Shown piece by piece: positions 40,819 to 63,441 of a stretch of 64,000 nucleotides of DNA. A model generated the notes under the pieces. The model searched no databases and had not been told where the DNA came from. It saw nothing but the letters and a program-made list of their open reading frames with translations. Within the stretch, counting starts at the first letter, position 1; each line of letters opens with the position of its first letter. Both the position numbers and the translations under genes were made by a program. This DNA comes from Colwellia sp. (GTDB taxonomy: Bacteria > Pseudomonadota > Gammaproteobacteria > Enterobacterales > Alteromonadaceae), in contig JABSOY010000009.1 of assembly GCA_013215385.1 (NCBI GenBank), positions 1 through 64,000 on the forward strand. The letters run 5' to 3'.

Positions 40819-40823
40819 TAAAC

Positions 40824-40842
40824 GTCTATATTTTTTACACTT
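40824..40842 (+). promoter_or_regulatory. Candidate activator site (UAS) of the PEP-CTERM regulon, copy 0
   Basis: GTCTATATTTTTTACACTT matches 18 of 19 bases of the element upstream of the third tandem PEP-CTERM gene, and ends 61 bases before the GG of the sigma-54 promoter. The spacing and recurrence before every PEP-CTERM gene suggest an enhancer-binding-protein site. Confidence 0.65.
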
Positions 40843-40902
40843 TCATCAAACCATAATACGCGTGATCACGTAAACAGTTGAAATAAATATACATTTATCT
40901 TT

Positions 40903-40918
40903 TGGTTTACTTTTTGCA
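40903..40918 (+). promoter_or_regulatory. Sigma-54 promoter of the solitary PEP-CTERM gene
   Basis: TGG at 40903-40905 and TTGCA at 40914-40918 give GG-N10-GC, matching the RpoN consensus TGGCAC-N5-TTGCW in its invariant bases. It is 40 bases before the start codon. Confidence 0.8.
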
Positions 40919-40957
40919 TTACTGTTTAATAATAATTTAGTCTATAAGGGTGAACAG

Positions 40958-41554
40958 ATGAAAAAATTAATTTTAGCTTTATTTATGTTTGTTGGTATGA
41001 ACATGTCAGCTAATGCAGCTCATATCGATCAATTAGGCATTAATATCACTTTAGTAAGCAGTGATGGCAATGGCAGCTTCAGCGTTTTATATCAAGAGTA
41101 TTTTGGTGCTGATGGTTGGATGTGGAATAATGGCGCTAATGCATGGAATGCTACGTATGGTGCTACATTATCTTCGTCATTATTTGCAGGTACTGGCACA
41201 TTATCAAACCCTGGCAGTTTTACCACTTCATTTGATGGTCTTGTAGATTCAAATGCGGTTCAAACTGCTGGCTTCGGCGCAGGACAACTAAATACACACT
41301 TTGTCAATGGCTTAAGCGATGCAGCAGTTTATAGTGCAGTCATTGATTACACGATTACTGGTTTTGATAACAGCCAACAATACATAGTAGATATAGTAGC
41401 GAACGATTGTTGTTATGTTTCCGGTGGTGGTGGTACATCTTTTGGTGGTCAATTACAGTTTGATATAACACAAACCGTTCCTGAACCAGCAACACTAAGT
41501 ATTATGTTACTCGGTATCATAGCTTTGTTTAGACACCGTTTTAGCAAAAAATAA
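40958..41554 (+). CDS. PEP-CTERM sorted exported protein
   Basis: The 198 residues comprise a signal peptide (1-20, ending ANA), a Gly/Ser/Asn-rich beta-type body, and a C-terminal sorting signal: VPEP at 174-177, a hydrophobic helix and a basic tail (FRHRFSKK). This tripartite tail is recognised and processed by exosortase, whose gene starts at 63442. The body has no recognised domain; a cysteine pair CC occurs near residue 150 (NDCCYVSGGGG). The sigma-54 promoter and upstream element are shared with the tandem PEP-CTERM genes 12 kb away. A strong terminator follows. Confidence 0.9.
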   Translation: MKKLILALFMFVGMNMSANAAHIDQLGINITLVSSDGNGSFSVLYQEYFGADGWMWNNGANAWNATYGATLSSSLFAGTGTLSNPGSFTTSFDGLVDSNAVQTAGFGAGQLNTHFVNGLSDAAVYSAVIDYTITGFDNSQQYIVDIVANDCCYVSGGGGTSFGGQLQFDITQTVPEPATLSIMLLGIIALFRHRFSKK

Positions 41555-41573
41555 TTTTGGTTTTAAAGTTATA

Positions 41574-41601
41574 AAGGTGGTTTTTACCGCCTTTTTTTTT
41601 T
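41574..41601 (+). terminator. Rho-independent terminator after the solitary PEP-CTERM gene
   Basis: The stem AAGGTGG/CCGCCTT (one G-T pair) with a six-base loop is followed by ten T. It lies only 18 bases before the start of the next gene. Confidence 0.88.
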
Positions 41602-41618
41602 GTAAAAAGGAACGTTCG

Positions 41619-43022
41619 GTGAAGTTATTCAACCAATTATTTATCCTTGTCATCATTTCAAGTAAATTCGCTGTTGCTGACATTATCACTAATCCAACTG
41701 ACGACAATATCTTTAATAACAGTGCCTTTAATGAAAGACAGTTTCTTCAGCAACTCACTAGCCAAGTAGAAAAATTACTGGCTGAAAAGAAGAACCTCCA
41801 AGCGCTAATATATGCTAAAAACGCTTCAACAAAAGTGCCCCGATCAGAAAAGACCCAACTGTTTTACGCTTCTTTGTTAGTGTTTTTAAAAGAAGAAGAT
41901 AAAGCTATTAAGCACTTAGCTACTATAAAAAATTCATTTCCAAATAATGGCAAGGGTTTCTTTATGTCTGCGGTATTATTATGGCAGCAAGGTAACACAA
42001 CCACTGCGATTGATGATATGAAAAAAGCCACTCAACTAGCTCCTTCACAATTGAAATACTGGTTAATGCTTTCTCAAATGAATCATGATGGTGAAGGCCA
42101 TGGGCTTAATGTTCATAAAGGCTCATTACAGGCATTACTCTCTGCTGAAGAACATCATCCAAATAATATAGATTTACTTTATAGAATTGCTGCAACATAC
42201 GATGAAGAAAGTAAATCGCAATTTGCACTTAAATATTATGCAAAAGTACTCGCCTTGGATTCTTCACATAATAATGCCAACACAGCTTCAGCTATTAATT
42301 CATTAAAAATAAATAATAAAATTAATGTAAATAAATGGATTAATAATATTCAATCACCGACATACCGTACTTATATTCATGCTATTAAATCTATTTACGA
42401 TAAAGCTTACCTACGAGCACACGATCAACTTGAAAAAATAAAAGCTGAACTCGTTGACAATGGTCATGTTGATTATTATTTAGCTAAAGCAAACCTAGGT
42501 TTAAATAATAATAAACAGGCAATAACATTTGCTAGCTCCTCTATTGAAAAAGGGATTTTCCCAAGTGAACAAGCTGAAATGATAAGCCTTATTTCATCAA
42601 CACAAAGTGCAAACTTTACTTTTCAGGTGAATAAAATTAGCCTTGATGGCATCCAAGAAAGCATTGGGGTAATAGATATTATTGAATTATCAAAGGGCAT
42701 TATTATCAAGCCTAATCTTTCAGGTTTAAATCCTGGCAGCCATGGTTTTCACGTTCACCAGGAAGGTACGTGTGACAATGTCCTAGTTGATGGACAGATT
42801 GTAGCAGGAGGAATGGCTAAAGGACATTATATGGGACATCAACACCATGGTTCACCTGCAGGTGATTTACCAAATATAGTTTTTGATAATAATAAAACAG
42901 CCCGCGACGCATTTCTTGTCCCACAGCTTACCCTTGCGGAAATAGAAGGAAGATCATTTATGATCCATGCAACAGCGGAAAATGATGCAAATATCAGAAT
43001 AGCCTGTGGTGTAGTAAAATAA
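41619..43022 (+). CDS. Exported TPR protein fused to a Cu/Zn superoxide dismutase-like domain
   Basis: From a GTG with AAGGAA six bases upstream, the 467 residues start with a signal peptide (about 1-20, ending AVA), continue with TPR-type helical repeats (about 50-320) and end in a SodC-like domain (about 337-467). That domain keeps the copper ligands His378/His380 (GFHVH) and His450 (MIHA), the disulfide cysteines 385 and 463, the GDLP Asp416 and the late Arg460 (RIACGVVK). The zinc loop is about six residues shorter than E. coli SodC, and the usual GGH and HLGD histidines are replaced. It should be periplasmic or surface located. Initial transcription may come from readthrough of the PEP-CTERM unit. 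Confidence 0.85.
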   Translation: MKLFNQLFILVIISSKFAVADIITNPTDDNIFNNSAFNERQFLQQLTSQVEKLLAEKKNLQALIYAKNASTKVPRSEKTQLFYASLLVFLKEEDKAIKHLATIKNSFPNNGKGFFMSAVLLWQQGNTTTAIDDMKKATQLAPSQLKYWLMLSQMNHDGEGHGLNVHKGSLQALLSAEEHHPNNIDLLYRIAATYDEESKSQFALKYYAKVLALDSSHNNANTASAINSLKINNKINVNKWINNIQSPTYRTYIHAIKSIYDKAYLRAHDQLEKIKAELVDNGHVDYYLAKANLGLNNNKQAITFASSSIEKGIFPSEQAEMISLISSTQSANFTFQVNKISLDGIQESIGVIDIIELSKGIIIKPNLSGLNPGSHGFHVHQEGTCDNVLVDGQIVAGGMAKGHYMGHQHHGSPAGDLPNIVFDNNKTARDAFLVPQLTLAEIEGRSFMIHATAENDANIRIACGVVK

Positions 43023-43079
43023 CTTATATTTTAAATAGTTTCATTTAAAATATAAGTTATATAAGCTTTAAATGAAACT
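43021..43079. repeat. Two mutually exclusive inverted repeats between convergent genes
   Basis: A perfect 16-bp stem (43021-43036 with 43043-43058, loop AGTTTC) competes with a perfect 13-bp stem (43037-43049 with 43067-43079). The loop and right arm of the first form the left arm of the second. T-rich tails are weak. It may serve as terminator for both the superoxide dismutase fusion and gpsA. Confidence 0.6.
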
Positions 43080-43086
43080 ATATTTA

Positions 43087-44109
43087 TTATTCGACAGTAC
43101 GATCACGTGACAATAAATCAGCGGCTGCTAACTTAGCCGCTTTACCGCAATAAAGCACTTTATAGACTTGCTCAACTATCGGCATTTCCACACCCAAGCG
43201 CTGTGCTAGCATATAAACTTCTTTAGTATTTCTATAACCTTCAACAACTTGACCAATATTAGCTATCGCCTCATCAACACCTGCTCCACCGCCAAGTGCT
43301 AAACCAAAACGTCGATTTCTCGATTGATTATCAGTACAGGTAAGCACTAAATCACCTAAGCCAGCCATGCCCATGAAAGTACTAGGATCAGCATTTAATG
43401 CCGTGCCCAAACGGGTCATTTCAACTAAACCGCGGGTAATTAATGCCGTACGCGCATTCGCGCCAAAGCCTATACCATCGGCCATTCCAGCACCAATAGC
43501 GATAACATTTTTAACCGCTCCGCCAAGCTGTACACCAATAAAGTCTTTATTAGCATAAACGCGGAATTTTTTTTCACAATGTAATAAGTCTGAGATCTCA
43601 GCAACAAAATCATCATCGGTTGATGACAATGAAATAGCTGTCGGTAAACCTGCCGCCATTTCTTTCGCAAAAGTGGGCCCAGATAAAACAGCTAAAGAAA
43701 TCTCATCGCCTAAGGTATCACGTGCAACATCTTGCAATAAACGACCAGTCTTATGATCCAAGCCTTTTGTTGCCCAAACTATTTTTGCATTCGCTAATAA
43801 GTAAGGTTTAATTTGGCTCAGTATATCGCCAAAAGCATGACTGGGTACTACCACCAAAATATTATTACTGGCTTTAATTGCACACTCTAAATCATCAGTT
43901 AACACCAATGACGGTGGAAATTTACTACCCGGTAAATACTTCTCGTTAGAATGCGACGATTGCATCTGCGCAACATGTTGAGGATTTCGTCCCCATAACA
44001 CGGTTTTATGACCATTTCGTGCTAAACAAATAGCAAGGGCAGAGCCATAAGACCCTGCCCCCAAAACCGTGATTTTTGCCGACAATTCCGACATATCATC
44101 AATTCTCAT
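43087..44109 (-). CDS. gpsA: Glycerol-3-phosphate dehydrogenase [NAD(P)+]
   Basis: GpsA supplies sn-glycerol-3-phosphate for phospholipid synthesis. The Rossmann motif [18 protein letters not shown] is at residues 17-34. [24 protein letters not shown], the catalytic Lys in [13 protein letters not shown] and [13 protein letters not shown] are all present. An internal ATG five codons in (44094) also has a plausible GAG upstream, so the first five residues are uncertain. It ends the yibN-grxC-secB-gpsA operon, as in E. coli. Confidence 0.96.
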
Positions 44110-44146
44110 TTTATTGTGGCTAAGCAGCCGTTAACAACACAGCTTA

Positions 44147-44659
44147 CTAATGTGTTTCAGTGCTCGCTGGTGCTTGCTCTGCTTGAGCGGCACGTTGCTG
44201 AACATAAGAAGCAAATAACGCTTCAAAGTTTACTGGCGCTAAATTAATTTGTGGGAAAGAACCACGATTAACTAAATTCGCTACCGACTCACGTGCATAT
44301 GGAAATAATGTTGTTGGACAGAATGCACCAATAGTATGAGCAAGTTGTGCTTCAGGTAAATTACCGATAGTAAAGATACCAGCCTGTTGAACTTCAGCTA
44401 AAAAGGCAGTTTGGCCTTCAACGGTTGCAGTAACCGTTACTGAAAGAACGACTTCATAGGTATCATCAGCCAATTTATTTGATTTAGTATCTAAATCTAA
44501 TTGAATTTCAGGTTTCCAATCTTTTTGAAAAATAGCCGGTGAATTTGGCGTTTCAAAAGAAATATCTTTCGTGTAAATACGTTGAATAGCAAATTGAGGA
44601 GCAGCTTGCTCAGTAGTCGCTGGTGATGCTTCCGCATTGTTTTGATTTTCGTCAGACAT
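44147..44659 (-). CDS. secB: Protein-export chaperone SecB
   Basis: SecB is a tetrameric chaperone that holds preproteins unfolded and hands them to SecA. The 170 residues include [19 protein letters not shown] at the start of the core, [25 protein letters not shown] and [11 protein letters not shown](S)V, which are standard. Both tails (Asn/Glu/Ala-rich N-terminus, Ala/Gln-rich C-terminus) are low complexity, as usual. It lies between grxC and gpsA. Confidence 0.97.
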
Positions 44660-44702
44660 GTTCTATTTCCTATTGTTTTTGCTATTTTATTTGATTTTAA
44701 TT

Positions 44703-44957
44703 TTAAGATTTTGCTAGAAGTTCATCTAATTCATTAGCGGCATGTAATGCGAATAAATCATCACAACCACCAACATGCTGTTCACCAATAAAGATTTGCG
44801 GCACAGTGACACCGCCACTGCGCTCAATCATCTTATTGCGTAATTCATTATTGTTATCGATCTTAATTTCATTAAAGCTAACTTCTTTTTGCTCTAATAA
44901 CGATTTTGCTCGCATACAATAAAAACAAGTTACTTTAGTGTAAATATCTACAGCCAT
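44703..44957 (-). CDS. grxC: Glutaredoxin 3
   Basis: This is an 84-residue dithiol glutaredoxin. The active site reads CFYC (residues 11-14) instead of the more common CPYC. The GSH-binding TVPQIFIGEQHVGGCDDL stretch with cis-Pro is intact, including an extra Cys near residue 65 as in E. coli Grx3. It reduces protein disulfides and glutathione mixed disulfides in the cytoplasm. It is in operon with the rhodanese gene (18 bases) and secB. Confidence 0.95.
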   Translation of the reverse strand: MAVDIYTKVTCFYCMRAKSLLEQKEVSFNEIKIDNNNELRNKMIERSGGVTVPQIFIGEQHVGGCDDLFALHAANELDELLAKS

Positions 44958-44975
44958 ATCAAATCTTTCTCATTA

Positions 44976-45404
44976 TTATTTTTTAACTAATGGTAAACCT
45001 GCATTTACCCAAGAATTCATACCACCTTTAAGTAAGCTCACTTTAGTAAAACCAGCTTTCAACATTTGGCTAGCTACAGTGGCAGCAGTTATTCCTGCGG
45101 TACATACAACTATGATGGGTTTATCTTTATAGTTTTCAAGGGTGGCAAAATCATTATTTGTCACTTTCTCTTTAACCAAATTTTTAGAATCTATAATACG
45201 ACTCGCTTTAAATTCTTTTTCTGTACGAATATCAACGATCACACCTTCTTGGCGATTGACTAAGAAGGTAAGTTCTTGTGTTGATATTTTTTTAATTGGC
45301 GACATTTGAATACGAATAGTAATGATAATAATCATCACAACAATAGCGGTCCAAGCGGCACTTAATAACGTGTGGTTACCGGCAAAAGTAATTAATTGAT
45401 CCAT
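44976..45404 (-). CDS. Membrane-anchored rhodanese-like protein, YibN-type
   Basis: The 142 residues have one N-terminal transmembrane helix (about 15-35) and a rhodanese domain with active-site loop VVCTAGITAA (Cys near residue 105). The gene order yibN-grxC-secB-gpsA is that of E. coli. I take the ATG at 45404, which gives MDQLITFAGNHTLL as in YibN; a TTG 12 codons upstream would give an unlikely extension. YibN is described as an inner-membrane sulfurtransferase-like protein; the substrate here is unknown. Confidence 0.88.
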   Translation of the reverse strand: MDQLITFAGNHTLLSAAWTAIVVMIIIITIRIQMSPIKKISTQELTFLVNRQEGVIVDIRTEKEFKASRIIDSKNLVKEKVTNNDFATLENYKDKPIIVVCTAGITAATVASQMLKAGFTKVSLLKGGMNSWVNAGLPLVKK

Positions 45405-45655
45405 AAAACAATAAATCTTTGTTGAATAAAAAGTTGCCAACAGTATACAGAATTACCGAACAAACCCAAAAAGAACTTTTCGTGAACAGCATTTATAGTG
45501 ACGAAAATATTATTTTTGATGCTTTGACTGATGATTAACCAGTGAAGTAACGAAATTTGATGGTAATATTTTGTCGTCAAGCACACAAGCAATTCTTTTT
45601 TTGCCTTGGTATACTGCCGAACAATTCGTTAATTTTCACCGTTATGGAAACTCAA

Positions 45656-47197
45656 ATGCCAAATAAAAAACCTACTGTATTACTTATTTTAGATGGGTGG
45701 GGATACCGCGAGTCTGAAGAGTCCAATGCTATTTTTCATGCTAAGACGCCAGTACTTGATGATTTAAATACTCGTTATCCAAATATGCTTATTGGTACAT
45801 CAGGTATGGCGGTTGGTTTACCTGACGGGCAAATGGGAAACTCAGAAGTAGGTCATGTTAATTTAGGTGCTGGACGTATTGTCTATCAAGACTTTACCCG
45901 TATTACAAAATCAATTGACGACGGAGAATTTAACGAAAACAGTGCACTTAATCATGCGGTAGTTAAAGCGGTAGAAAATGATAAAGCCGTGCATATATTT
46001 GGTTTGTTATCGCCAGGCGGTGTACATAGCCATGAAGAACATATTTTTTCGATGCTCGAACTTGCCAAAGAAAAAGGCGCGAATAAAATATACCTGCACG
46101 CTTTTCTAGATGGACGTGATACCCCACCGCGCAGTGCACAAGCATCATTAATTAAGACACAGGAAAAATTTCAGCAGTTAGGCTGTGGACAAATAGCGTC
46201 AGTTATTGGCCGTTATTATGCAATGGACCGTGATCAACGATGGGATCGTGTCGAGCTCGCTTACAATTTAATGGTAAGTGGCGAAGCACAACATCAATAT
46301 TCAAGCGCAACAGATGCTTTGCAAGCCGCTTATGCCCGTGATGAAAACGATGAATTTGTCGCGGCCTCAGCTATTTTAGACGAAAACAATAATCCGATTG
46401 AAGTAAACGATGGCGACACATTAATTTTTATGAACTTTCGTGCTGACCGAGCTCGTCAATTTACACGCTGTTTTACTGAAAAAGACTTCTCAGGTTTTGC
46501 GCGAAAGAAAATTCCTGCGATTGCTGACTTTGTCATGCTGACCGAATATGCAGCAGATATTGAAGCCAATATTGCTTTCGAAAAAGTTAAACTTGATAAC
46601 GTATTGGGTGAATGGCTAGAGAAGCACAATAAAACACAATTACGTATTTCTGAAACAGAAAAATATGCCCATGTGACTTTCTTTTTTAGTGGCGGAAAAG
46701 AAGATGAATTTATTGGCGAACAGCGAATTTTAGTGCCATCTCCACAAGTGGCGACCTATGATTTACAACCTGAAATGAATTCAACGTTACTGACTGATAA
46801 ATTAGTAGCCGCTATTGAAAGTGGTGAGCATGATCTTATTGTTTGTAATTACCCAAATGGCGACATGGTCGGCCATACCGGCAAATTCGATGCTGCGGTT
46901 GCTGCTTGTGAAGCTGTCGATACTTGTGTTGGTCGTGTGGTCGCTGCTTTAGAGAAAGCCGGTGGTGAATGTTTAATTACTGCCGATCATGGTAATGCGG
47001 AACAAATGATGGACCACAGCTCAGGACAAGTCCATACCGCACATACCTGTGAGCCAGTGCCACTTATTTATATTGGCCGCAATGCTCACCCCGCAGAAAA
47101 AGGTGCCTTAAGTGATATTGCCCCAACCCTGCTGCAATTAATGGGTATGGAACAACCTGAAGAAATGACAGGTCAGTCATTAATGAAATTCATCTAG
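45656..47197 (+). CDS. gpmI: 2,3-bisphosphoglycerate-independent phosphoglycerate mutase
   Basis: This glycolytic mutase interconverts 3- and 2-phosphoglycerate with two Mn2+. It is an alkaline-phosphatase superfamily enzyme with ILDGWGYRE (metal), the phosphoserine in [39 protein letters not shown] and [10 protein letters not shown] choose the ATG at 45656 ([10 protein letters not shown]) because GGAAA stands just before it. The ATG at 45644 is possible; longer starts are unsupported. It is divergent from yibN and followed by envC and a YibQ-like gene, the conserved order. Confidence 0.96.
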
Positions 47198-47213
47198 CCG
47201 GTTATTAATAAAC

Positions 47214-48377
47214 ATGAGTGAAATCGCTAAAAAAATATTGATATTGGCATCGATGTTCAGCTTTAGCTGTATATTGATGTCAGCAAGTTTTGCTCAGCAA
47301 GCCTCATCTAATGACCAAAGCAAGAATAAAGCCGATCAAAAATTGTCTGCGGTACAGCAGCAAATTTCGAAGCAAAAAAACGCGATAGAAAAAACAAATA
47401 CTAAGCGTTCGGTATTAGAGAAGCAGTTAAAAAGTGATGATAATGCCATTGCAAAAATAGCTAAGGCAACTATCGAAACCCAAGCACATTATCAAGTAAG
47501 CCAAAAAAACTTAAAACGCCTTGCACAAGAAGAGATATCGTTAACTCATCAAAAACAACAACAAGAAAAGGTATTAGGTCAACAACTACGAGCTGCCTAT
47601 ACCTCTGGCCATCACGATTATATTAAGCTGTTATTAAACCAAGAAAAACCAGCAAGTGTGCAACGTACCGTCACCTATTATCAATACCTTAATAGTGCAC
47701 GTATTAAAGAAATAGACCAATTTCAAATCGTATTAAGCGATTTAATGGCGGTAACCACAGAGCATCAAGAACAAGCCAACACACTAAAGATATTAAAGCA
47801 GCAACAAGCAGAACAGAAAAAGACGTTTGTGCATATCAAGCGCGAACGAACCAAAACCATTAAAGCGTTAAATAAAAAACTGCTTAGCAGTAAACAACTA
47901 CTGGTAAAACTCATTGCAGAAGAAGAAAATTTAGTAGCGGCTTTGCAACGTATTGCGACCTTATCGCAACAAAACATTGAATTAACCGGCTTAAAAAGAC
48001 TTAAAAATAAACTTTCATGGCCAATAAAAGGCAAAGTTAAACATAGCTTTGGTACGCGAAAACAAGGTTACTTAAAATGGAAAGGTATTCTCTTAACCGC
48101 TCCCGTCGGACGACAAGTTAAAACTATACATAACGGAACGGTATTATTTTCGGATTGGCTAAAAGGTTATGGTTTAGTGACAGTAATTGACCATGGCGCA
48201 GGTTATATGAGTTTATATGGACATAATCAAGCGTTATTAAAAGCCGTTGGCGACCGAGTTGAAACCGGTGAACCCATTGCCCTTGTCGGCCAAAGTGGCG
48301 GCCAAGCACAGTCAGGTTTATATTTCGAAATACGTAGAAACGGACAAGCGGTTAATCCTAAAGCTTGGTTTAAATAA
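47214..48377 (+). CDS. envC: Murein hydrolase activator EnvC
   Basis: EnvC is a periplasmic activator of the AmiA/AmiB amidases at the septum. The 387 residues have a signal peptide (about 1-27), a long coiled coil (about 35-245) and a C-terminal LytM/M23 domain (about 265-387). The LytM domain lacks the HxGxD zinc motif (the place reads LKWKGILL) but keeps SLYGHNQ. That is the known non-catalytic EnvC type, which activates amidases rather than cutting peptidoglycan. The partner amidase AmiB is at 18915. Confidence 0.94.
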   Translation: MSEIAKKILILASMFSFSCILMSASFAQQASSNDQSKNKADQKLSAVQQQISKQKNAIEKTNTKRSVLEKQLKSDDNAIAKIAKATIETQAHYQVSQKNLKRLAQEEISLTHQKQQQEKVLGQQLRAAYTSGHHDYIKLLLNQEKPASVQRTVTYYQYLNSARIKEIDQFQIVLSDLMAVTTEHQEQANTLKILKQQQAEQKKTFVHIKRERTKTIKALNKKLLSSKQLLVKLIAEEENLVAALQRIATLSQQNIELTGLKRLKNKLSWPIKGKVKHSFGTRKQGYLKWKGILLTAPVGRQVKTIHNGTVLFSDWLKGYGLVTVIDHGAGYMSLYGHNQALLKAVGDRVETGEPIALVGQSGGQAQSGLYFEIRRNGQAVNPKAWFK

Positions 48378-48484
48378 CCAACAGGTCATGACACAGCCAA
48401 TATAAAACCAACTTATCCTCGATTTAAACTTTTTCAACTGATAACCTAAAACCATAATAAAAACTCATCACACGAAAGGCTTTT

Positions 48485-49249: not shown

Positions 49250-49253
49250 CCTT

Positions 49254-50030
49254 TTAATTTTTCGCTAGATAATCAATCTTATGTTTTTTCAATAACTGAG
49301 ATAAATATTTAACCGGAATAGCATAAGTAATACCACTCGGCTTGCTAATCACAGCTTCTTTTGTTTCCTGTACAAACACCTTATTAATAATCCCAATGAC
49401 GGCACCTGATTCAATATCGTATAAAGCACTACCGCTGTTTCCTGGATACGCGGTGGCATCAAGTTGATAAACTAAATAAGGGTTACGTAACATCTTCAAC
49501 ATCTTGATGCTTATTTTACTGACGTCATCAACTGGGATTATTGTTGGGGTAATACTCGCAATAATACCACGATGCGTTACCGGATAGAGCCCGAGAACAG
49601 CTCCTATAGGAAAGCCACTAAACGCGACATAGCTGCCTTCACGACGAAAGGCATCTTCCGCGAGTTTCATTGCCGGTAAAGGGGAACCATTAATTTTCAA
49701 CACCGCAAGATCATGGAGTTGAGAACTGGCAACAATCTCGGCAGTACGCACTTTTGCTGTTTTTCCTGAACCGGTAAAAATTGCCATTTTCTGCAGCAAG
49801 TTATCGTCTAATTCTTTAGGTAAAACATGATGATTGGTTACTACATACTGACCATTTCCAATAACAAAACCACTACCATTCAAACTGTTTTTTTGTCGTG
49901 CAGTCGGTGTATGCACACCAATACCGACAATTGACGGTTTCACTTTAGCAACAGTATCGGCAAGTTCAGCGATAACAGAATTTGTAAACAAAGATAAAAT
50001 CACAAAGGTTAACAGGGATCCGTAGCGCAT
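49254..50030 (-). CDS. Exported trypsin-like serine protease without PDZ domain
   Basis: The 258 residues have a signal peptide (about 1-21, ending VIA) and one S1C-type protease domain. The triad is visible: His in VVTNHHVL (about residue 66), Asp in LHDLAVLKI (about 106) and Ser in YPGNSGSALYD (about 200). DegP/DegS relatives carry PDZ domains after this point, but here the protein stops after TYAIPVKYL. A GGAG site lies seven bases upstream of the ATG. It converges with the YibQ-like gene and is divergent from the patatin gene. Confidence 0.9.
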   Translation of the reverse strand: MRYGSLLTFVILSLFTNSVIAELADTVAKVKPSIVGIGVHTPTARQKNSLNGSGFVIGNGQYVVTNHHVLPKELDDNLLQKMAIFTGSGKTAKVRTAEIVASSQLHDLAVLKINGSPLPAMKLAEDAFRREGSYVAFSGFPIGAVLGLYPVTHRGIIASITPTIIPVDDVSKISIKMLKMLRNPYLVYQLDATAYPGNSGSALYDIESGAVIGIINKVFVQETKEAVISKPSGITYAIPVKYLSQLLKKHKIDYLAKN

Positions 50031-50111
50031 TTTACAACTCCATTTTTATTAAATTTATTTTATAATCAGTAAGTTTACTGCGTTTTTCTCTCAAAAACAG
50101 CTATCATTACG

Positions 50112-50127
50112 GGTAATTATAATTACC
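50112..50127. promoter_or_regulatory. Perfect 16-bp palindrome between divergent protease and patatin genes
   Basis: GGTAATTATAATTACC is fully symmetric and lies in the 156-base divergent intergenic, 59 bases before the patatin start. An operator for a dimeric regulator is plausible; no regulator gene is adjacent. Confidence 0.5.
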
Positions 50128-50186
50128 TGAAAAAATCAGTGTATTTTACAGGGCAGTGATTATTCACTCAAAGGTTTACTTACTAT

Positions 50187-51014
50187 ATGACAACAAGAAA
50201 AACCGTCGTTCCTATATTTGCAGGAGGAGGCACTCGCCTACCAGCTCACGTCGGAATTTTGTACGCCTTAAAAGAATTTGACGTAGATTTTACCCATCTG
50301 GTCGGTGTATCGGGTGGTAGCATTGTTAGTAGCTTATTTGCCGCAGGATTAACCCCAAAAGAAATCAAAGATATTGCATTAACAACAGACTACAAGCAAT
50401 TTAGAGGTTTTTCACTTTTTAAACTAATAAGATATGGTGGCTTAAGCTCTGGCGATCGCTTTGAACAATGGATGGATGAATTACTAGGTGGAAAAACCTT
50501 TGCTGAGCTTGACTATAACCTTCACATTGTCGCTACGGATGTTGCCAATGGGGCACCCGTTATTTTTGATAAAGAAAATACTCCTGATGTAAAAGTATCC
50601 CTTGCTGTCAGGTTTTCTATGTCAATTCCTTTGGTTTTTAGTTTTAAATCTTTTGGCGATCACGTTATGGTTGACGGAAGTATCTTGTCTGAAGATGCTC
50701 TACATCGTGATTGGGCTAAAGACGGAACACCGGTATTGTGTTTTAGACTTAAAGGTGAACATGAAAATAATGCCGTTGAAATTAAAGGTTTTTTTCCTAT
50801 TTATAAGTACGTAACCTTGCTGATACGCACTTTTATGACCACAATTTCACGCGAATATATTAACGATGCTTTTTGGCACAACACGGTTGTAGTAAATATT
50901 GGCAATCATTCTGCCGTCGATTTCAATATGACAATAGAGCAAAAACAAACCTTATTCGATATTGGCCTTAAAACAGCAGAACAAGTATTACCGATAAAGT
51001 TGGGTAAAAACTAA
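50187..51014 (+). CDS. Patatin-like phospholipase family protein
   Basis: This is a 275-residue cytoplasmic hydrolase. The glycine-rich oxyanion loop is FAGGGTRLPAHVGIL (residues 11-25), the nucleophile Ser is in GVSGGS (about residue 43), and the dyad Asp is in MVDGSIL (about 163). Patatin-type enzymes cleave acyl chains from phospholipids. It stands just upstream of an acyltransferase gene of the exosortase type, so it might supply or remove acyl groups in that pathway; this link is inference. No signal peptide is seen. Confidence 0.88.
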   Translation: MTTRKTVVPIFAGGGTRLPAHVGILYALKEFDVDFTHLVGVSGGSIVSSLFAAGLTPKEIKDIALTTDYKQFRGFSLFKLIRYGGLSSGDRFEQWMDELLGGKTFAELDYNLHIVATDVANGAPVIFDKENTPDVKVSLAVRFSMSIPLVFSFKSFGDHVMVDGSILSEDALHRDWAKDGTPVLCFRLKGEHENNAVEIKGFFPIYKYVTLLIRTFMTTISREYINDAFWHNTVVVNIGNHSAVDFNMTIEQKQTLFDIGLKTAEQVLPIKLGKN

Positions 51015-51097
51015 AGTATTCTCAGTTATTAGTAATAATTTTTAAATATTCAGTATATTATTAGCTATACTGGTTGAGTGAGGTAAAGTTCTATTCA

Positions 51098-51116
51098 GAT
51101 AGAGTATCACTCTATC
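51098..51116. repeat. Inverted repeat upstream of the acyltransferase gene
   Basis: GATAGAG-TATCA-CTCTATC lies 55 bases before the start codon. It could be an operator or a leader hairpin. No sigma-54 promoter or PEP-CTERM upstream motif is present here, so this gene seems to be controlled differently from the sorted proteins. Confidence 0.45.
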
Positions 51117-51171
51117 GCGAAGAAATTTACTTTAACGCGAACATAAAACATGACGACAAACGGATGAGCAC

Positions 51172-51978
51172 ATGAGTCTTGGTAGATTAATATTGAATTC
51201 ACCTATTATTGGCGACGTAGCAAAGAAAGTTGCTTCGCTAAAGGTGAACCATGATGCAGGAAACATTGCCCAGCACTTTACTAAGTTTCTCAAGCCTCAA
51301 TATGCGTCTTCAGAGCGGCTTAAAGAAGAAGTTTTTAAAATTCGCCATAATGTTTATTGCGAAGAGTTAGCCTTTGAACACCAAAAAGATGATGGTATGG
51401 AAATGGACGAATTTGATCCACATTCCATTTTCGCACTGATTAAGCATAAACCAACTAATAATTATACAAGCTGTGTGCGAATCGTTTGTTCCAGTTCTGA
51501 TGATGAATTGCTCCCGATAGAAAAATTTTGCTTTGACGCAATTCAAGACGATAATTACAATCCCAGAAATTTCAAACGTTCCGAAATTGGCGAGTTTTCA
51601 CGTTTAGCAGTAAAAGCTGATTTTAGACGTCGTAAATCAGATCGCTTTAAGGGATCTGCAGTTGGTGCAATTCATGAAAGTACTTATTCTGAATCAGAGT
51701 TACGTTGCTTCCCTTTTATCGCCATCGGCTTATATATGGTTGCAGGAACATTAGCCATTGATAAAGGTATCAAACACGCTTTTGTAATGATGGAGCCACG
51801 CTTAGCTCGCAGTATGAAGTTCGTCGGCATAAAGTTTGTTCAAATAGGTGAGCCAATTGAATACCATGGCCTACGTGCACCCTACTATATAAATGCAGAA
51901 ATATTTTTAGATAACTTAACTAGCGGCTTTAAAAGTTTGTATAAAGAGATACAAAAAGAAATTCGTAGTCAGTTTTAA
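51172..51978 (+). CDS. PEP-CTERM/exosortase system-associated acyltransferase
   Basis: The 268 residues resemble the GNAT-like acyltransferases found only with exosortase systems, related to N-acyl amino acid synthases such as FeeM. The recognisable parts are VFKIRHNVYCEELAFE near residue 55, an acidic DEFDPHSIFALI, EIGEFSRLAVKADFRRR near 140-155 and a C-terminal MMEPRLARSMKFVGIKF. The reaction is not established; transfer of a fatty acyl group to an amine is the family expectation. It is followed by a ThiF-family gene and the PEP-CTERM tandem. Confidence 0.85.
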   Translation: MSLGRLILNSPIIGDVAKKVASLKVNHDAGNIAQHFTKFLKPQYASSERLKEEVFKIRHNVYCEELAFEHQKDDGMEMDEFDPHSIFALIKHKPTNNYTSCVRIVCSSSDDELLPIEKFCFDAIQDDNYNPRNFKRSEIGEFSRLAVKADFRRRKSDRFKGSAVGAIHESTYSESELRCFPFIAIGLYMVAGTLAIDKGIKHAFVMMEPRLARSMKFVGIKFVQIGEPIEYHGLRAPYYINAEIFLDNLTSGFKSLYKEIQKEIRSQF

Positions 51979-51995
51979 TTAACTATTTCTATCTC

Positions 51996-52021
51996 TTATT
52001 TTAGTTTTCCTACTAAAATAA
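51996..52021. repeat. Inverted repeat between acyltransferase and ThiF genes
   Basis: TTATTTTAGT-N6-ACTAAAATAA is a perfect 10-bp stem 18 bases after the acyltransferase stop. No T-run follows, so it may reduce or process the transcript rather than end it. Confidence 0.5.
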
Positions 52022-52071
52022 AGCCAAGATAACCTCTATAACCTCCATTGATTGATATAAAAAGGATCCTC

Positions 52072-52962
52072 ATGTTCAACTATGAAGAAGCATTCTCACG
52101 TAATATTGGCTGGGTAACTAAAGAAGAGCAACAAGTACTTAGAAACACTAAAGTAGCAATAGGTGGTTTAGGTGGCGTTGGCGGTGATCACACGATTGTT
52201 TTAGCTCGATTAGGCATCGGGAATTTTCATATATCAGACCTTGATGATTATGATGTAGCTAATTTTAATCGTCAAGCCGGTGCTAATATGTCTACTATAG
52301 GCCAGGCTAAAGCAGCGGTTATGGAAGAAACTATTAGAGGTATTAATCCTGAAGCCACCATCAAAAACTTCGATTCAGGTATCAATGAAGAAAACCTAGA
52401 TGATTTTCTAGAAGGTGTCGATATCTATGTGGATAGCTTAGATATTTTTGTTTTAGAAATTAGACGGAAAGTTTTTCGACGTTGTTATGAAAAGGGTATT
52501 CCTACAATAACAGCAGCTCCAATGGGAATGGGTACAGCTTTCTTAGTATTCATGCCGGGTAAAATGTCTTTCGATGAATACTTTGCCATAGTCGACGCTG
52601 CAGCGAATGCCAGCGAAGATGAAAAGGCCAAAATATTCAATGACAATATTATTCGTTTTGTTATCGGTGTTTCACCTTCAGTACAGCAACGTCACTATTT
52701 AGTAGATAGGTCTTCTGTAAATTTCCTCAAAAAGAAAGTACCTTCAACCTGTATGGGCATTTCTTTAGCCGCAGGAACACTCTGTACTAATGTATTGAAA
52801 ATACTATTAAAACGTGGCGATGTCATTCACGCACCTCATGGTATGCACTTTGACGCGTATAGAAACAACTTGATTAAAACGTGGCGACCTTGGGGTAATA
52901 GAAATTGGTTGCAGCGCTTTATGTTTTGGCGAGTTAAAAATTTGTTAAAAGAGAATTCTTAA
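52072..52962 (+). CDS. ThiF/E1-family adenylyltransferase
   Basis: From the ATG at 52072 (AAGGA six bases upstream) the protein has 296 residues. The nucleotide site AIGGLGGVGGDHTIVLARLG (residues 27-46), the NFNRQAG Arg and the YVDSLD Asp match the ThiF/MoeB/E1 superfamily, which adenylates C-terminal carboxylates. The CxxC zinc pairs of MoeB/ThiF are absent. Cysteines in STCMGISLAAGTLC near residue 230 are candidates for a thioester role. The C-terminal tail is basic and aromatic. Its place between the exosortase-associated acyltransferase and the PEP-CTERM tandem suggests a role in modifying an acyl or protein substrate, which is inference. Confidence 0.85.
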   Translation: MFNYEEAFSRNIGWVTKEEQQVLRNTKVAIGGLGGVGGDHTIVLARLGIGNFHISDLDDYDVANFNRQAGANMSTIGQAKAAVMEETIRGINPEATIKNFDSGINEENLDDFLEGVDIYVDSLDIFVLEIRRKVFRRCYEKGIPTITAAPMGMGTAFLVFMPGKMSFDEYFAIVDAAANASEDEKAKIFNDNIIRFVIGVSPSVQQRHYLVDRSSVNFLKKKVPSTCMGISLAAGTLCTNVLKILLKRGDVIHAPHGMHFDAYRNNLIKTWRPWGNRNWLQRFMFWRVKNLLKENS

Positions 52963-52963
52963 T

Positions 52964-52982
52964 GTCAGCTTTTTTTACGCTT
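52964..52982 (+). promoter_or_regulatory. Candidate activator site of the PEP-CTERM regulon, copy 1
   Basis: GTCAGCTTTTTTTACGCTT matches the copy-0 element at 14 of 19 positions. It starts immediately after the ThiF stop and ends 59 bases before the sigma-54 GG. It is the most divergent of the five. Confidence 0.55.
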
Positions 52983-53040
52983 GCTTTATAAAAAGTAAAA
53001 CACCTAAATTAACCACTTAGAATACAACAAGATACAAACA

Positions 53041-53056
53041 TGGCACGATAGGTGCT
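53041..53056 (+). promoter_or_regulatory. Sigma-54 promoter of tandem PEP-CTERM gene 1
   Basis: TGGCACGATAGGTGCT contains GG (53042-53043) and GC (53054-53055) with exactly ten bases between. The -24 half TGGCAC is the full consensus. Confidence 0.85.
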
Positions 53057-53105
53057 ATGAGTTACATCATTATAATATAGTAAATCATACACATTAGGGA
53101 ATAAA

Positions 53106-53966
53106 ATGAAATTCATAAAATCAATTGCATTAACAACTGCATTGCTAGCAACTAGCGTAAGTGCATCACAAATCGAAGTAGACCTGAATGACGCAGGCGC
53201 TACATCTACAGCAGCTATGGATTACTTAACAGTTAACTATGCATCTCACACATCAGTCAACGTAGTTACTAGTGCTGTTACTACTTATGCTGGCGTTAAT
53301 GCTATCGGTGTTGACTTTGGTTTTTTAGCTGCACCTGTTGTTGCTGATTTTGGTTCTCTTGTTGGCTGCCCAAGCTGTGGCGTTGAAAACACACTTAGCG
53401 GTGTACCTGACTTTTTAGGCTCAGGCTTTACCTCTGAATACTTCACTTCAGGTATGGGTTTAACTTACGGCATCTCATTAACGGGTTCTTTAGTGGCAGG
53501 CGAATTAGTTTACACTGGCGGTACATTAGACATGTACAGCTACGACTTCCTAGGTGCTGCAGCAGCTCCAACAACTTACATGCCAACCAAATTGTTCTCT
53601 TCTGAGTTTGTTTCTGGTGGTGTTTTTGCTGGTGAACAAGTAGTAAGAACTACCATAACAAGCATAGAAGCAGCCGGTGAAGATACATTTTTCCTTACGG
53701 ATTATAATGAGAGTTTCGAAGACTACATAGCAAGAACGTTAGCGGATATCGATTTGTACATAGTGCAAACCGTTGCTGCTGGCCAATTAGCTGCTGATAT
53801 CGTAGATGCACTTTCAGATAACACTGTGAATGACGGATTTGGTACGGTCTACGTATCTGCTGAGCACAATGCTTCAATCACATTTTCTGTTCCAGAGCCT
53901 ACAAGTATTGCTATCTTAGGCTTAGGTTTATTAGGACTTGCAAGCACAAAACGTCGCAAGTCATAA
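53106..53966 (+). CDS. Tandem PEP-CTERM protein 1 (type A)
   Basis: The 286 residues have a signal peptide (1-20, ending VSA), a beta-rich Gly/Thr/Val body with a Cys pair GCPSCG (Cys88, Cys91), and the sorting tail: VPEP at 262-265, a Gly/Leu helix and KRRK at 282-285. The protein is predicted to be exported, cut by exosortase and placed at the cell surface or in the extracellular matrix. The body matches no domain I can name. The A and B types differ at about 37 positions by my count. AGGGA precedes the ATG. It is controlled by its own sigma-54 promoter and ended by its own terminator. Confidence 0.92.
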   Translation: MKFIKSIALTTALLATSVSASQIEVDLNDAGATSTAAMDYLTVNYASHTSVNVVTSAVTTYAGVNAIGVDFGFLAAPVVADFGSLVGCPSCGVENTLSGVPDFLGSGFTSEYFTSGMGLTYGISLTGSLVAGELVYTGGTLDMYSYDFLGAAAAPTTYMPTKLFSSEFVSGGVFAGEQVVRTTITSIEAAGEDTFFLTDYNESFEDYIARTLADIDLYIVQTVAAGQLAADIVDALSDNTVNDGFGTVYVSAEHNASITFSVPEPTSIAILGLGLLGLASTKRRKS

Positions 53967-53990
53967 TCTGACAAAGCTACAAACTAAAAG

Positions 53991-54016
53991 CCAGTTACTG
54001 AGTAACTGGTTTTTTT
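53991..54016 (+). terminator. Terminator of tandem PEP-CTERM gene 1
   Basis: The stem CCAGTTAC/GTAACTGG with loop TGA is followed by seven T. Confidence 0.92.
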
Positions 54017-54080
54017 ATACCTAAAATAATCCCCCTTCTCTTTATTATCAATTACCTCCAATGCGCCCTGCTAAATTAAT

Positions 54081-54099
54081 GTCGATATTTTTTACAGTT
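54081..54099 (+). promoter_or_regulatory. Candidate activator site of the PEP-CTERM regulon, copy 2
   Basis: GTCGATATTTTTTACAGTT matches copy 0 at 17 of 19 positions and ends 60 bases before the sigma-54 GG. It is followed by CTAAAATAAAGATA, also present after copy 3. Confidence 0.65.
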
Positions 54100-54158
54100 G
54101 GCTAACTCTAAAATAAAGATAAAGTTTAAAATACAATAGAATCAGCCCAATAGAGCCT

Positions 54159-54174
54159 TGGCACTACAAATGCA
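54159..54174 (+). promoter_or_regulatory. Sigma-54 promoter of tandem PEP-CTERM gene 2
   Basis: TGGCACTACAAATGCA has GG (54160-54161) and GC (54172-54173) ten bases apart, with a consensus TGGCAC -24 half. Confidence 0.85.
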
Positions 54175-54219
54175 TTACCAAACTATAGAAGCAAAGCATG
54201 CGCAACCTGAGGAAATAAA

Positions 54220-55080
54220 ATGAAGTTTATAAAATCAATTGCATTAATAGCTACATTATTAGCAACTAGCGTAAATGCATCACAAATCGAAGTAGACCTA
54301 AATGACGATGGCGCTACATCCACAGCGGCAATGGATTACTTAACCATTAACTATTCATCACATACAACTGTCAACGTAGGCACTAATGTTGTCACTACTT
54401 ATGCTGGTGTTAATGCTATCGGTATTGACTTTGGCTTTTTAGCTGCACCTGTCGTTGCTGATTTTGGGGCGCTTGTAGGCTGCCCAAATTGTGGTGTTGT
54501 AAATACATTTAGCGGTGTTCCTGACTTTTTAGGCTCAGGATTTACCTCTGAATATAATACCTCAGGCTTGGGTTTGACTTACGGCATCTCGTTAACGGGC
54601 TCTTTAGTGGCAGGCGAATTAGTTTATACTGGTGGTACATTAGACATGTATAGCTACGACTTCCTTGGGGTTGCTGCAGCACCAACAACCTATATGCCAA
54701 CTAAATTATTCTCTACTGAATTTGTTTCTGGTGGTGTTTTTGCCGGGGAACAGGTCATAAGAACCACTATCACAAGCGTGGAAGTTGCCGGTGAAGATAC
54801 ATTCTTCCTCACGGATTATAATGAGAGTTTTGAGGACTACATGGCGAATACATTAGGGGGTATTGACTTGTACATAGTACAAACCGTTGCTGCCGGTCAA
54901 TTAGCCGCTGATATCATAACCGCACTTGGAGATAGTGATGTAAATGACGGTTTTGGTACCGCCTATATATCTGCTCCTCATAATGCTTCAATTACTTTTT
55001 CTGTTCCAGAGCCTACCAGTATTGCTATCTTGGGTTTAGGGTTATTAGGACTTGCAGGCGCAAAACGTCGTAAATCTTAA
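54220..55080 (+). CDS. Tandem PEP-CTERM protein 2 (type B)
   Basis: The 286-residue paralogue of type A has the same layout: signal peptide ending VNA, GCPNCG cysteine pair (88, 91), VPEP at 262-265, hydrophobic helix and KRRKS end. Substitutions against type A cluster in the signal peptide, residues 43-57, 84-116 and 234-254, while 117-165 and the sorting tail are nearly constant. GAGGAA precedes the ATG. It is flanked by its own sigma-54 promoter and terminator, so each tandem gene is a separate transcription unit. Confidence 0.92.
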   Translation: MKFIKSIALIATLLATSVNASQIEVDLNDDGATSTAAMDYLTINYSSHTTVNVGTNVVTTYAGVNAIGIDFGFLAAPVVADFGALVGCPNCGVVNTFSGVPDFLGSGFTSEYNTSGLGLTYGISLTGSLVAGELVYTGGTLDMYSYDFLGVAAAPTTYMPTKLFSTEFVSGGVFAGEQVIRTTITSVEVAGEDTFFLTDYNESFEDYMANTLGGIDLYIVQTVAAGQLAADIITALGDSDVNDGFGTAYISAPHNASITFSVPEPTSIAILGLGLLGLAGAKRRKS

Positions 55081-55104
55081 TCTAACAATGTTATAACTTA
55101 AAAA

Positions 55105-55130
55105 CCAGTTACTGTGTAACTGGTTTTTTT
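55105..55130 (+). terminator. Terminator of tandem PEP-CTERM gene 2
   Basis: The stem CCAGTTAC/GTAACTGG with loop TGT is followed by seven T. Confidence 0.92.
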
Positions 55131-55208
55131 ATGCATGAAAATAATTTCGAATAGCATTCAATGCGCCTTCATTTTCTACCTCTCCTTTAAATGCCCGCCT
55201 AAATTATT

Positions 55209-55227
55209 GTCTATATTTTTTACAGTT
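55209..55227 (+). promoter_or_regulatory. Candidate activator site of the PEP-CTERM regulon, copy 3
   Basis: GTCTATATTTTTTACAGTT matches copy 0 at 18 of 19 positions and ends 59 bases before the sigma-54 GG. It lies outside the duplicated unit, so its match to copies 0 and 2 is not explained by the recent duplication. Confidence 0.65.
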
Positions 55228-55285
55228 ACTTTTCCTAAAATAAAGATATGCAATTAAACATCATAAAATCAACCGATTACAATAC

Positions 55286-55301
55286 TGGCATGATAGCTGC
55301 T
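55286..55301 (+). promoter_or_regulatory. Sigma-54 promoter of tandem PEP-CTERM gene 3
   Basis: TGGCATGATAGCTGCT has GG (55287-55288) and GC (55299-55300) ten bases apart. It is similar but not identical to the promoter of gene 1. Confidence 0.83.
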
Positions 55302-55356
55302 TTAAGTTAAATCATTGTAATATAATTAAAAATTAATACACAGCTAAGGGAATAAA

Positions 55357-56217
55357 ATGAAATTCATAAAATCAATTGCATTAACAACTGCATTGCTAGC
55401 AACTAGCGTAAGTGCATCACAAATCGAAGTAGACCTGAATGACGCAGGCGCTACATCTACAGCAGCTATGGATTACTTAACAGTTAACTATGCATCTCAC
55501 ACATCAGTCAACGTAGTTACTAGTGCTGTTACTACTTATGCTGGCGTTAATGCTATCGGTGTTGACTTTGGTTTTTTAGCTGCACCTGTTGTTGCTGATT
55601 TTGGTTCTCTTGTTGGCTGCCCAAGCTGTGGCGTTGAAAACACACTTAGCGGTGTACCTGACTTTTTAGGCTCAGGCTTTACCTCTGAATACTTCACTTC
55701 AGGTATGGGTTTAACTTACGGCATCTCATTAACGGGTTCTTTAGTGGCAGGCGAATTAGTTTACACTGGCGGTACATTAGACATGTACAGCTACGACTTC
55801 CTAGGTGCTGCAGCAGCTCCAACAACTTACATGCCAACCAAATTGTTCTCTTCTGAGTTTGTTTCTGGTGGTGTTTTTGCTGGTGAACAAGTAGTAAGAA
55901 CTACCATAACAAGCATAGAAGCAGCCGGTGAAGATACATTTTTCCTTACGGATTATAATGAGAGTTTCGAAGACTACATAGCAAGAACGTTAGCGGATAT
56001 CGATTTGTACATAGTGCAAACCGTTGCTGCTGGCCAATTAGCTGCTGATATCGTAGATGCACTTTCAGATAACACTGTGAATGACGGATTTGGTACGGTC
56101 TACGTATCTGCTGAGCACAATGCTTCAATCACATTTTCTGTTCCAGAGCCTACAAGTATTGCTATCTTAGGCTTAGGTTTATTAGGACTTGCAAGCACAA
56201 AACGTCGCAAGTCATAA
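55357..56217 (+). CDS. Tandem PEP-CTERM protein 3 (type A, identical to protein 1)
   Basis: The protein is identical residue for residue to that of gene 1, and the DNA appears identical by eye. Only its promoter region differs: it keeps the sigma-54 promoter and upstream motif but shares limited sequence elsewhere with that of gene 1. The two identical proteins may thus be expressed at different strengths. Signal peptide, Cys88/Cys91, VPEP tail and basic end are as described for protein 1. Confidence 0.92.
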   Translation: MKFIKSIALTTALLATSVSASQIEVDLNDAGATSTAAMDYLTVNYASHTSVNVVTSAVTTYAGVNAIGVDFGFLAAPVVADFGSLVGCPSCGVENTLSGVPDFLGSGFTSEYFTSGMGLTYGISLTGSLVAGELVYTGGTLDMYSYDFLGAAAAPTTYMPTKLFSSEFVSGGVFAGEQVVRTTITSIEAAGEDTFFLTDYNESFEDYIARTLADIDLYIVQTVAAGQLAADIVDALSDNTVNDGFGTVYVSAEHNASITFSVPEPTSIAILGLGLLGLASTKRRKS

Positions 56218-56241
56218 TCTGACAAAGCTACAAACTAAAAG

Positions 56242-56267
56242 CCAGTTACTGAGTAACTGGTTTTTTT
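56242..56267 (+). terminator. Terminator of tandem PEP-CTERM gene 3
   Basis: This is the same CCAGTTAC/GTAACTGG hairpin and T-run as after gene 1, inside the duplicated unit. Confidence 0.92.
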
Positions 56268-56331
56268 ATACCTAAAATAATCCCCCTTCTCTTTATTATC
56301 AATTACCTCCAATGCGCCCTGCTAAATTAAT

Positions 56332-56350
56332 GTCGATATTTTTTACAGTT
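56332..56350 (+). promoter_or_regulatory. Candidate activator site of the PEP-CTERM regulon, copy 4
   Basis: It is identical to copy 2 because it lies within the duplicated unit; it ends 60 bases before the sigma-54 GG. Confidence 0.62.
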
Positions 56351-56409
56351 GGCTAACTCTAAAATAAAGATAAAGTTTAAAATACAATAGAATCAGCCCA
56401 ATAGAGCCT

Positions 56410-56425
56410 TGGCACTACAAATGCA
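56410..56425 (+). promoter_or_regulatory. Sigma-54 promoter of tandem PEP-CTERM gene 4
   Basis: It is identical to the promoter of gene 2, GG-N10-GC with GG at 56411-56412 and GC at 56423-56424. Confidence 0.85.
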
Positions 56426-63243: not shown

Positions 63244-63441
63244 TATCAAAATCCTTTAAGAGCTTGTATAGCTTTTATTATTTCGAATATACTACCCATT
63301 TAACAAACGGCTTACAATTGTTAGTAAAATTAACTTATAGGAATATTCATTAACTTTTTTTCTGAAGAAAAAAACAAGTATCACTGACTAGCTATTCTAA
63401 GTACTATAAGGTTAAGACAATATGGACATCCACGCTGAGTA

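Follow-up and report, generated by a model that had tools for sequence, protein, structure and literature searches.

The closest described system is that of Haft et al. (2006; PMC1569441), whose accessible text reports a 17-nt motif with a 3′ TTTACA that precedes PEP-CTERM genes together with a sigma-54 box, the spacer between the two being 62.8 ± 10.6 nt (range 32–92). PrsR was the predicted activator, the phylogenetic profile was matched by PrsR, PrsK and PrsT, and Colwellia psychrerythraea was among the genomes pooled. Here we analyze a 64,000-nt stretch of a Colwellia sp. genome (contig JABSOY010000009.1, positions 1 to 64,000; “the window”), in which five copies of such a motif precede sigma-54 promoters of PEP-CTERM genes. 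The window sites share with the 2006 element the TTTACA end (4 of 5 copies; copy 1 has TTTACG), a spacer within 32–92, the PEP-CTERM gene context, and PrsR, PrsK and PrsT. Since motif 1, motif 2 and PrsR were all described in that work, the window motif is a new instance of a published PEP-CTERM cis-regulatory element. The published spacer is given as a mean with a range, whereas here the spacer falls in steps of ~11 bases and is often accompanied by a site resembling that of integration host factor (IHF). A term search of the text of PMC1569441 did not find helical spacing, dyads, IHF, integration host or loop, and none of the titles and abstracts found in the openly licensed literature concerned helical spacing or IHF at PEP-CTERM promoters. 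The helix-turn-stepped spacer and the enriched IHF-like site look new.

Our reading, to which we assign a probability of about 85%, is that the motif is an enhancer bound by PrsR under the control of PrsK, and that it forms a short, phase-locked loop, often bent by IHF, to a sigma-54 promoter. The 17-nt element, about TGTCRRNWTTTTTTACA, would probably be bound by a dimer of PrsR, an NtrC-type response regulator controlled by the kinase PrsK. PrsR would contact the sigma-54 polymerase waiting at the GG-N10-GC box and would use its AAA+ domain for promoter opening. In so short a loop, motif and promoter would have to face each other on the helix, so that the spacer would shift only by whole turns (~11 bases). 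The loop would be bent at many promoters by IHF bound ~32 bases upstream of the TGG, and at some longer spacers the site of IHF would lie about one turn further upstream. We infer the roles of PrsR as binder and IHF as bender, and the formation of the loop, from features that are directly observed, namely the motif, the promoter, the gene context, the PrsR and PrsK genes, their co-occurrence with the site, the ~11-base steps and the enriched IHF-like consensus.

A related spacing pattern is known from the LuxO-driven qrr enhancers of Vibrio, for which the accessible text of PMC4740811 reports that the loop lengths of 61 enhancers cluster ~11 bp apart and proposes tolerance of whole-turn insertions and deletions as a mark of such enhancers. 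Both cases join the site of an NtrC-type activator to a sigma-54 promoter at lengths in ~11-bp steps. The qrr genes, however, are one gene group of one genus with average lengths of about 80–120 (PMC4740811), whereas the PrsR case spans many families of Proteobacteria, concerns another activator, and has loops that are mostly shorter as well as an enriched IHF-like site. The steps at the predicted PrsR sites are a second, phylogenetically wider case after LuxO/qrr.

The upstream activator sequence of NifA, TGT-N10-ACA, works through an IHF-assisted loop. The Colwellia element resembles it in its TGT...ACA ends, its sigma-54 promoter and the putative IHF site between them, but has N11, short preferred distances and a regulator of a different family: PrsR scores 735 bits on TIGR02915 versus 334.3 on the nifA model (cut-off 528.85). 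IHF is described as acting at sigma-54 promoters in general (PMC7057263). In Aquincola tertiaricarbonis, the accessible text of PMC9850573 describes pepA, a PEP-CTERM gene adjoining prsT with an earlier-predicted enhancer upstream, as requiring RpoN1 and as having a mapped start with -24/-12 motifs. Expression was measured in that species, whereas the Colwellia promoters are known here from sequence alone.

The motif, its predicted regulon and PrsR in the Colwellia genome

Recomputation from the window recovered all of the motif positions, match counts and promoter distances given in a first-pass annotation of this DNA. The 19-base form of the motif starts at 40824, 52964, 54081, 55209 and 56332 (copies 0–4), and the last four copies match the first at 14, 17, 18 and 17 of 19 positions, respectively. 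The “gap,” as we call the stretch separating the 19-mer from the GG of GG-N10-GC, is 61, 59, 60, 59 and 60 bases, and the interval from the 17-mer to the TGG is 61–63 bases. All five copies sit ahead of PEP-CTERM genes. The consensus GTCNNNWTTTTTTACRSTT occurs five times in the window versus zero times in 100 dinucleotide shuffles, and TTTTTTAC followed by GG-N10-GC at the right distance occurs only at these five places (0.27 expected).

The first-pass annotation also stated that copies 0–3 lie in otherwise largely different intergenic sequence. Within the window the copies are less independent than this suggests. An exact 2,038-base tandem repeat includes both the copy at 54081 and that at 56332 and accounts for their identity, and the aligned copies at 52964, 54081 and 55209 are 52–62% identical and stand before paralogous genes; the 40824 copy is 46–55% identical to these three. 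Given this duplication and paralogy, the window probably represents about two independent lineages, not four. Independent support comes instead from the rest of the genome, in which the motif and GG-N10-GC at gap 58–61 precede 17 of the 30 PEP-CTERM genes with a readable start, including the five in the window (these 17 motifs have ≤4 mismatches; up to 5 were allowed in the search).

A whole-genome scan had been suggested beforehand, with a motif no more frequent ahead of PEP-CTERM genes than elsewhere as the outcome that would speak against the prediction. That outcome was absent, as all seven exact matches in the 5.1 Mb genome precede PEP-CTERM genes. Six further matches have one mismatch; three are before PEP-CTERM genes, two are in long open frames and one lacks a downstream GG-N10-GC. 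Overall, the motif is upstream of 21 of the 31 PF07589 matches in the genome. The motif at C14:49370 is followed by a degenerate -24 element, those at C38:417990 and C38:378671 lie at gaps 71 and 102, and a well-preserved site at gap 61 stands before an apparently frame-broken PEP-CTERM gene at C4:231586 (L209, C4:230888).

We also built a sequence model of motif, spacer and promoter from 16 sites of this genome. Its top 20 genome matches are all ahead of PEP-CTERM genes; 17 are training sites (16 distinct plus one identical copy) and three, whose genes were recognized by eye or Pfam, are not. The genes at two of these three are missing from the genome-wide PF07589 list. Among the eight non-training matches with E-values up to 0.0032, six are before PEP-CTERM genes, one of which (C11:963) aligns to the promoter half of the model only. 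The other two were considered and rejected. C22:3550, a candidate non-PEP target, covers model positions 18–102 only and is followed by a 401-aa open reading frame of another kind, and at C13:57674, a candidate regulon member, GG-N10-GC and a motif-like site are present but no PEP-CTERM gene could be recognized. The model scan established no non-PEP regulon members in this genome. A separate observation concerns L211 (C22:27685, minus strand), where a full PrsR-site promoter is followed by a gene whose product, ~59 residues long or 72 if an upstream ATG is used, consists of little beyond a PEP-CTERM tail and an N terminus resembling a signal peptide.

The genome encodes PrsR, PrsK and PrsT. 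The first-pass annotation noted that PEP-CTERM systems commonly have a PrsK/PrsR pair with an NtrC-type PrsR. One of each is present above the family cut-off (PrsK at 723 bits on TIGR02916) on this contig, ~30 kb past the end of the window. The AAA+ domain of PrsR, of the sigma-54 type, contains GAFTGA, and the protein also has a receiver domain and a Fis-type helix-turn-helix. Among 369 gammaproteobacterial genomes, 49 have the combined site at gaps 35–96, and PrsR exceeds its cut-off in 46 of these versus 106 of all 369 (Fisher 2e-25). The exceptions are G134 (96% complete), G157 (73%) and G272 (77%). At gaps 97–127, PrsR is present in eight of nine site-positive genomes. Together with the genome scan, this co-occurrence supports the interpretation of the motif as a candidate PrsR site, an interpretation whose core was already published in 2006.

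Stepped spacers and an IHF-like element

Across Proteobacteria the spacer is quantized at about 50, 61, 71, 83 and 94 bases, with little between. In 59 related genomes the exact motif pattern gave 23 matches in 15 genomes (one control match); 19 have a downstream GG-N10-GC, the nearest at 48, 58–61, 71, 81–82, 85 or 94, and two of the other four are inside long open frames. In the 369 gammaproteobacterial genomes, with zero control matches in every range, gaps 35–65 gave 56 matches (5 at 49–51 and 51 at 59–63), gaps 66–96 gave 29 (17 at 67–74, 7 at 83–85, 3 at 93–95, and one each at 76 and 79), and gaps 97–127 gave 12 (102, 106 twice, 113 three times, 115, 116, 117 twice, 124 and 126). In a phylum sample of 398 genomes searched at gaps 54–84, all 51 matches fell at 58–63, 70–72 or 81–84 (control 1); 42 were analyzed, as nine rows of G000 and G379 had been counted already.

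The 46 of 97 matches outside gaps 57–65 were scanned for periods of 8 to 14 bases and compared with 5,000 uniform draws, which set a floor of 2e-4 for p. They are best fitted by 10.9 bases (p ≤ 2e-4, R 0.59), and their phase (6.2) predicts a peak at 60.7. The main peak, which had been excluded from the fit, is at 60.8 (mean of 81 matches, 51 from the class and 30 from the phylum sample; standard deviation 1.2). When each family contributes a single value per turn (n = 36), the period is again 10.9 (R 0.66, p ≤ 2e-4) and the predicted peak 60.9. A separate scan of named contigs, unfiltered by taxon (promoter score at least 10; sites with <130 bases downstream skipped) gave, among the matches listed, a period of 11.3 (43 sites, 23 off the main peak, p = 3e-4). 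A mechanical test for a PEP-CTERM-like gene downstream, applied to 99 of 148 rows, was passed by 64 of 99 loci, several of the others running off the sequence end. Two of the 64 are coding artefacts, and the PEP-followed set (62 loci, 35 off the main peak) has a period of 11.4 (p ≤ 2e-4). The three matches at 113 are outside the PEP-followed set and the 96 sites described below, count once in the per-family test, and were kept in the pooled test. At the sequence level, the helical steps of the spacer are well supported.

The IHF-like element was found by aligning 96 spacers on the promoter (the 99 loci minus three coding matches). At position -32, counted from the T of TGG, and in one orientation, they are enriched in YAA-N4-TTGATW, the reverse complement of the IHF consensus, which was used for scoring. 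The mean score at -32 is 4.95 of 9 versus 3.36 ± 0.14 in shuffled spacers, and 14% of sites versus 0.16% in shuffled spacers reach 8/9. A second set of 43 sites, which shares no identical site with the first, gave 5.02 versus 3.37 ± 0.21, and the Colwellia genome itself gave 5.56 versus 3.57 ± 0.35 (16 sites). In the first set the peak is at -32 for gaps 58–63 and 67–76; in the second, gaps 79–84 peak at -42 (5.5, n = 8). Matches of at least 8/9 number 57 in 139 spacers, versus a shuffle mean of 13.8 (largest 24); 37 of them are at -32 ± 1 and eight at -43 ± 1, seven of these eight in spacers of at least 81. The element is likely to be an IHF site in the set as a whole; in the window this assignment is uncertain at every promoter but that of copy 0.

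We considered whether a second PrsR site lies at a fixed position beside the first. The search pattern behind the 96 sites left few motif positions free, so that the logo is informative at those positions and in the flanks only. On either side of the 17-mer no column exceeds 0.2 bits, so there is no fixed tandem PrsR site. One locus, L089, has two exact copies of the motif.

Several observations weigh against our reading. The motif is missing upstream of 10 of the 31 PF07589 matches (e.g., C10:31026, C10:31389 and C1:226948); these genes may have other promoters, lie within operons or be fragments. Two of the eight non-training model matches have no recognized PEP-CTERM gene downstream. With up to three mismatches, the motif alone has 747 matches versus 898 for a reversed control, and this higher control makes it useless as a stand-alone genome scan. 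The co-occurrence of PrsR is confounded with the presence of the whole PEP-CTERM system. For the spacer, gaps 97–127 alone have no significant periodicity (n = 12, p = 0.13), and the three matches at 113 are homologous, from one conserved coding sequence. Gaps 66–96 alone favor a period of 12.05 and the phylum sample 11.8 (n = 12), the fitted period ranges from 10.8 to 12.05 between sets, and fits to the named-contig and the PEP-followed loci would place the main peak at 59.3, not 60.8. Kinship was handled by one value per family only. For the IHF-like element, the peak at -32 is absent in the first set for gaps 79–85 (4.14, n = 14), and in the window only copy 0 has a strong site (8/9), the others scoring 5, 3, 4 and 3.

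Other explanations bear on each part of the model. The 11-base steps could reflect common descent or a bias in insertions and deletions rather than selection for helical phase, given that related genomes have promoters in common, that window copies 2 and 4 are duplicates, and that kinship entered the statistics at the family level only. We consider this improbable, since the 10.9-base period is kept with one value per family and turn, the separate named-contig set gives a similar period, and the peak predicted by a phase fitted without the main peak differs from the observed one by 0.1 to 1.5 bases in the various sets. It is similarly improbable that the motif is bound not by PrsR but by some other DNA-binding protein or sigma-54 activator encoded in this genome. 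Eighteen of its proteins, including PrsR, reach at least 240 bits on the sigma-54 activator model, and the accessible text of PMC4641369 predicts one shared motif for DVU0110 and DVUA0057 of Desulfovibrio vulgaris. Against this, a single protein of the Colwellia genome exceeds the TIGR02915 cut-off, and PrsR is absent from just three of the 49 site-positive genomes, two of which (G157 and G272, not G134) are incomplete. In addition, DVUA0057, the predicted PEP-CTERM regulator of D. vulgaris, enriched its five predicted PEP-CTERM targets and several other sites in a DAP-chip experiment (PMC3333781); according to a figure legend of that paper, no motif was validated for that regulator group.

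The nature of the third element is less settled. It could be an AT-rich, UP-like or intrinsically curved segment beside the promoter instead of an IHF site, as AT content has maxima near -30, -20 and -9, most sites match the IHF consensus only partly, and four of the five window promoters match it poorly. We nevertheless regard this as the less likely explanation, because the enriched letters are those of the IHF consensus, in a single orientation and at a single position, and because strong matches exceed even the largest shuffle count and concentrate at -32 ± 1 and -43 ± 1.

Features of the window and atypical targets

Table 1. Predicted regulatory sites, genes and repeats in the 64,000-nt Colwellia window.
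Feature	Position	Strand	Evidence or remark
Predicted PrsR site (17-nt motif 1), copy 0	40823..40839	+	Motif match
Putative IHF-like site TAAACAGTTGAAA	40871..40883	+	8/9 consensus letters, 32 bases upstream of T of TGG
Sigma-54 promoter GG-N10-GC, copy 0	40904..40917	+	Pattern match
PEP-CTERM protein gene, 198 aa	40958..41554	+	PF07589 21.9 bits, cut-off 20.7
Predicted PrsR site, copy 1, most diverged copy	52963..52979	+	Motif match; IHF-like match 5/9, weak
Sigma-54 promoter, copy 1	53042..53055	+	Pattern match
PEP-CTERM gene A1, 286 aa, distant PepA relative	53106..53966	+	NF033554 45.6 bits, cut-off 80: non-member
Predicted PrsR site, copy 2	54080..54096	+	Motif match; IHF-like match 3/9, weak
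Sigma-54 promoter, copy 2	54160..54173	+	Pattern match
PEP-CTERM protein gene B1, 286 aa	54220..55080	+	
Predicted PrsR site, copy 3, inside the 213 bases separating the exact repeat units	55208..55224	+	IHF-like match 4/9, weak
Sigma-54 promoter, copy 3	55287..55300	+	Pattern match
PEP-CTERM gene A2, identical to A1	55357..56217	+	
Predicted PrsR site, copy 4, duplication-derived twin of copy 2	56331..56347	+	IHF-like match 3/9, as copy 2
Sigma-54 promoter, copy 4	56411..56424	+	Pattern match
PEP-CTERM gene B2, identical to B1	56471..57331	+	
Exact tandem repeat, 2,038 bases	53096-55133 = 55347-57384		Each unit with two PEP-CTERM genes
PrsT-type TPR protein	57772..60423	-	TIGR02917 612.7 bits, cut-off 312.2
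Second PrsT-type TPR protein	60469..63249	-	TIGR02917 656.1 bits
Exosortase, gene start, cut by window end	63442..64000	+	TIGR02602 93.4 bits on fragment, cut-off 105.55

The 213 bases that separate the two repeat units contain a predicted PrsR site and a promoter of their own and are unduplicated, and the tandem repeat suggests recent unequal exchange or gene conversion (Table 1). The two genes for PrsT-type TPR proteins (57772-63249) are adjacent, and each product is far above the TIGR02917 cut-off. Next to the first PEP-CTERM gene, at 41577-43022, lies a gene whose predicted product joins TPR repeats to a Cu/Zn superoxide dismutase domain.

We also noted three loci of the same genus (L054, L058 and L066) at which the motif, at gap 82, precedes members of a small, secreted-looking family without a PEP-CTERM tail. 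These proteins are 162 to 169 aa as called, or 133 to 140 aa from an internal ATG (L054 and L066), and their genes are possible non-PEP targets of PrsR. At six other loci (L050, L053, L060, L318, L319 and L320), the genes behind the motif encode tails in which SAP, PTP, PGP or PAP replaces PEP, which suggests that the promoter can reveal atypical exosortase substrates.

Implications for PEP-CTERM regulation

The motif in this Colwellia genome confirms the 2006 prediction in another genome, and the model points to two PEP-CTERM genes unlisted by the genome-wide Pfam search. A sharper rule for regulon searches is suggested, combining motif, phase-allowed spacing and promoter. The stepped spacer and IHF-like site make DNA looping cheaply testable at these promoters, where insertions of whole and half turns should act oppositely. 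This promoter type controls proteins tied to floc and matrix formation.

More broadly, we lean toward the view that the PEP-CTERM promoters of Proteobacteria form a three-part enhancer locked in phase, made up of PrsR site, IHF bend and sigma-54 promoter, in which the intervals from PrsR site to IHF and from IHF to promoter both change by whole helical turns only. If this is true, the natural distribution of spacers would record, across the phylum, the helical repeat of DNA at work in living cells, and genomes alone would suffice to read off how the loop of one regulator is shaped.

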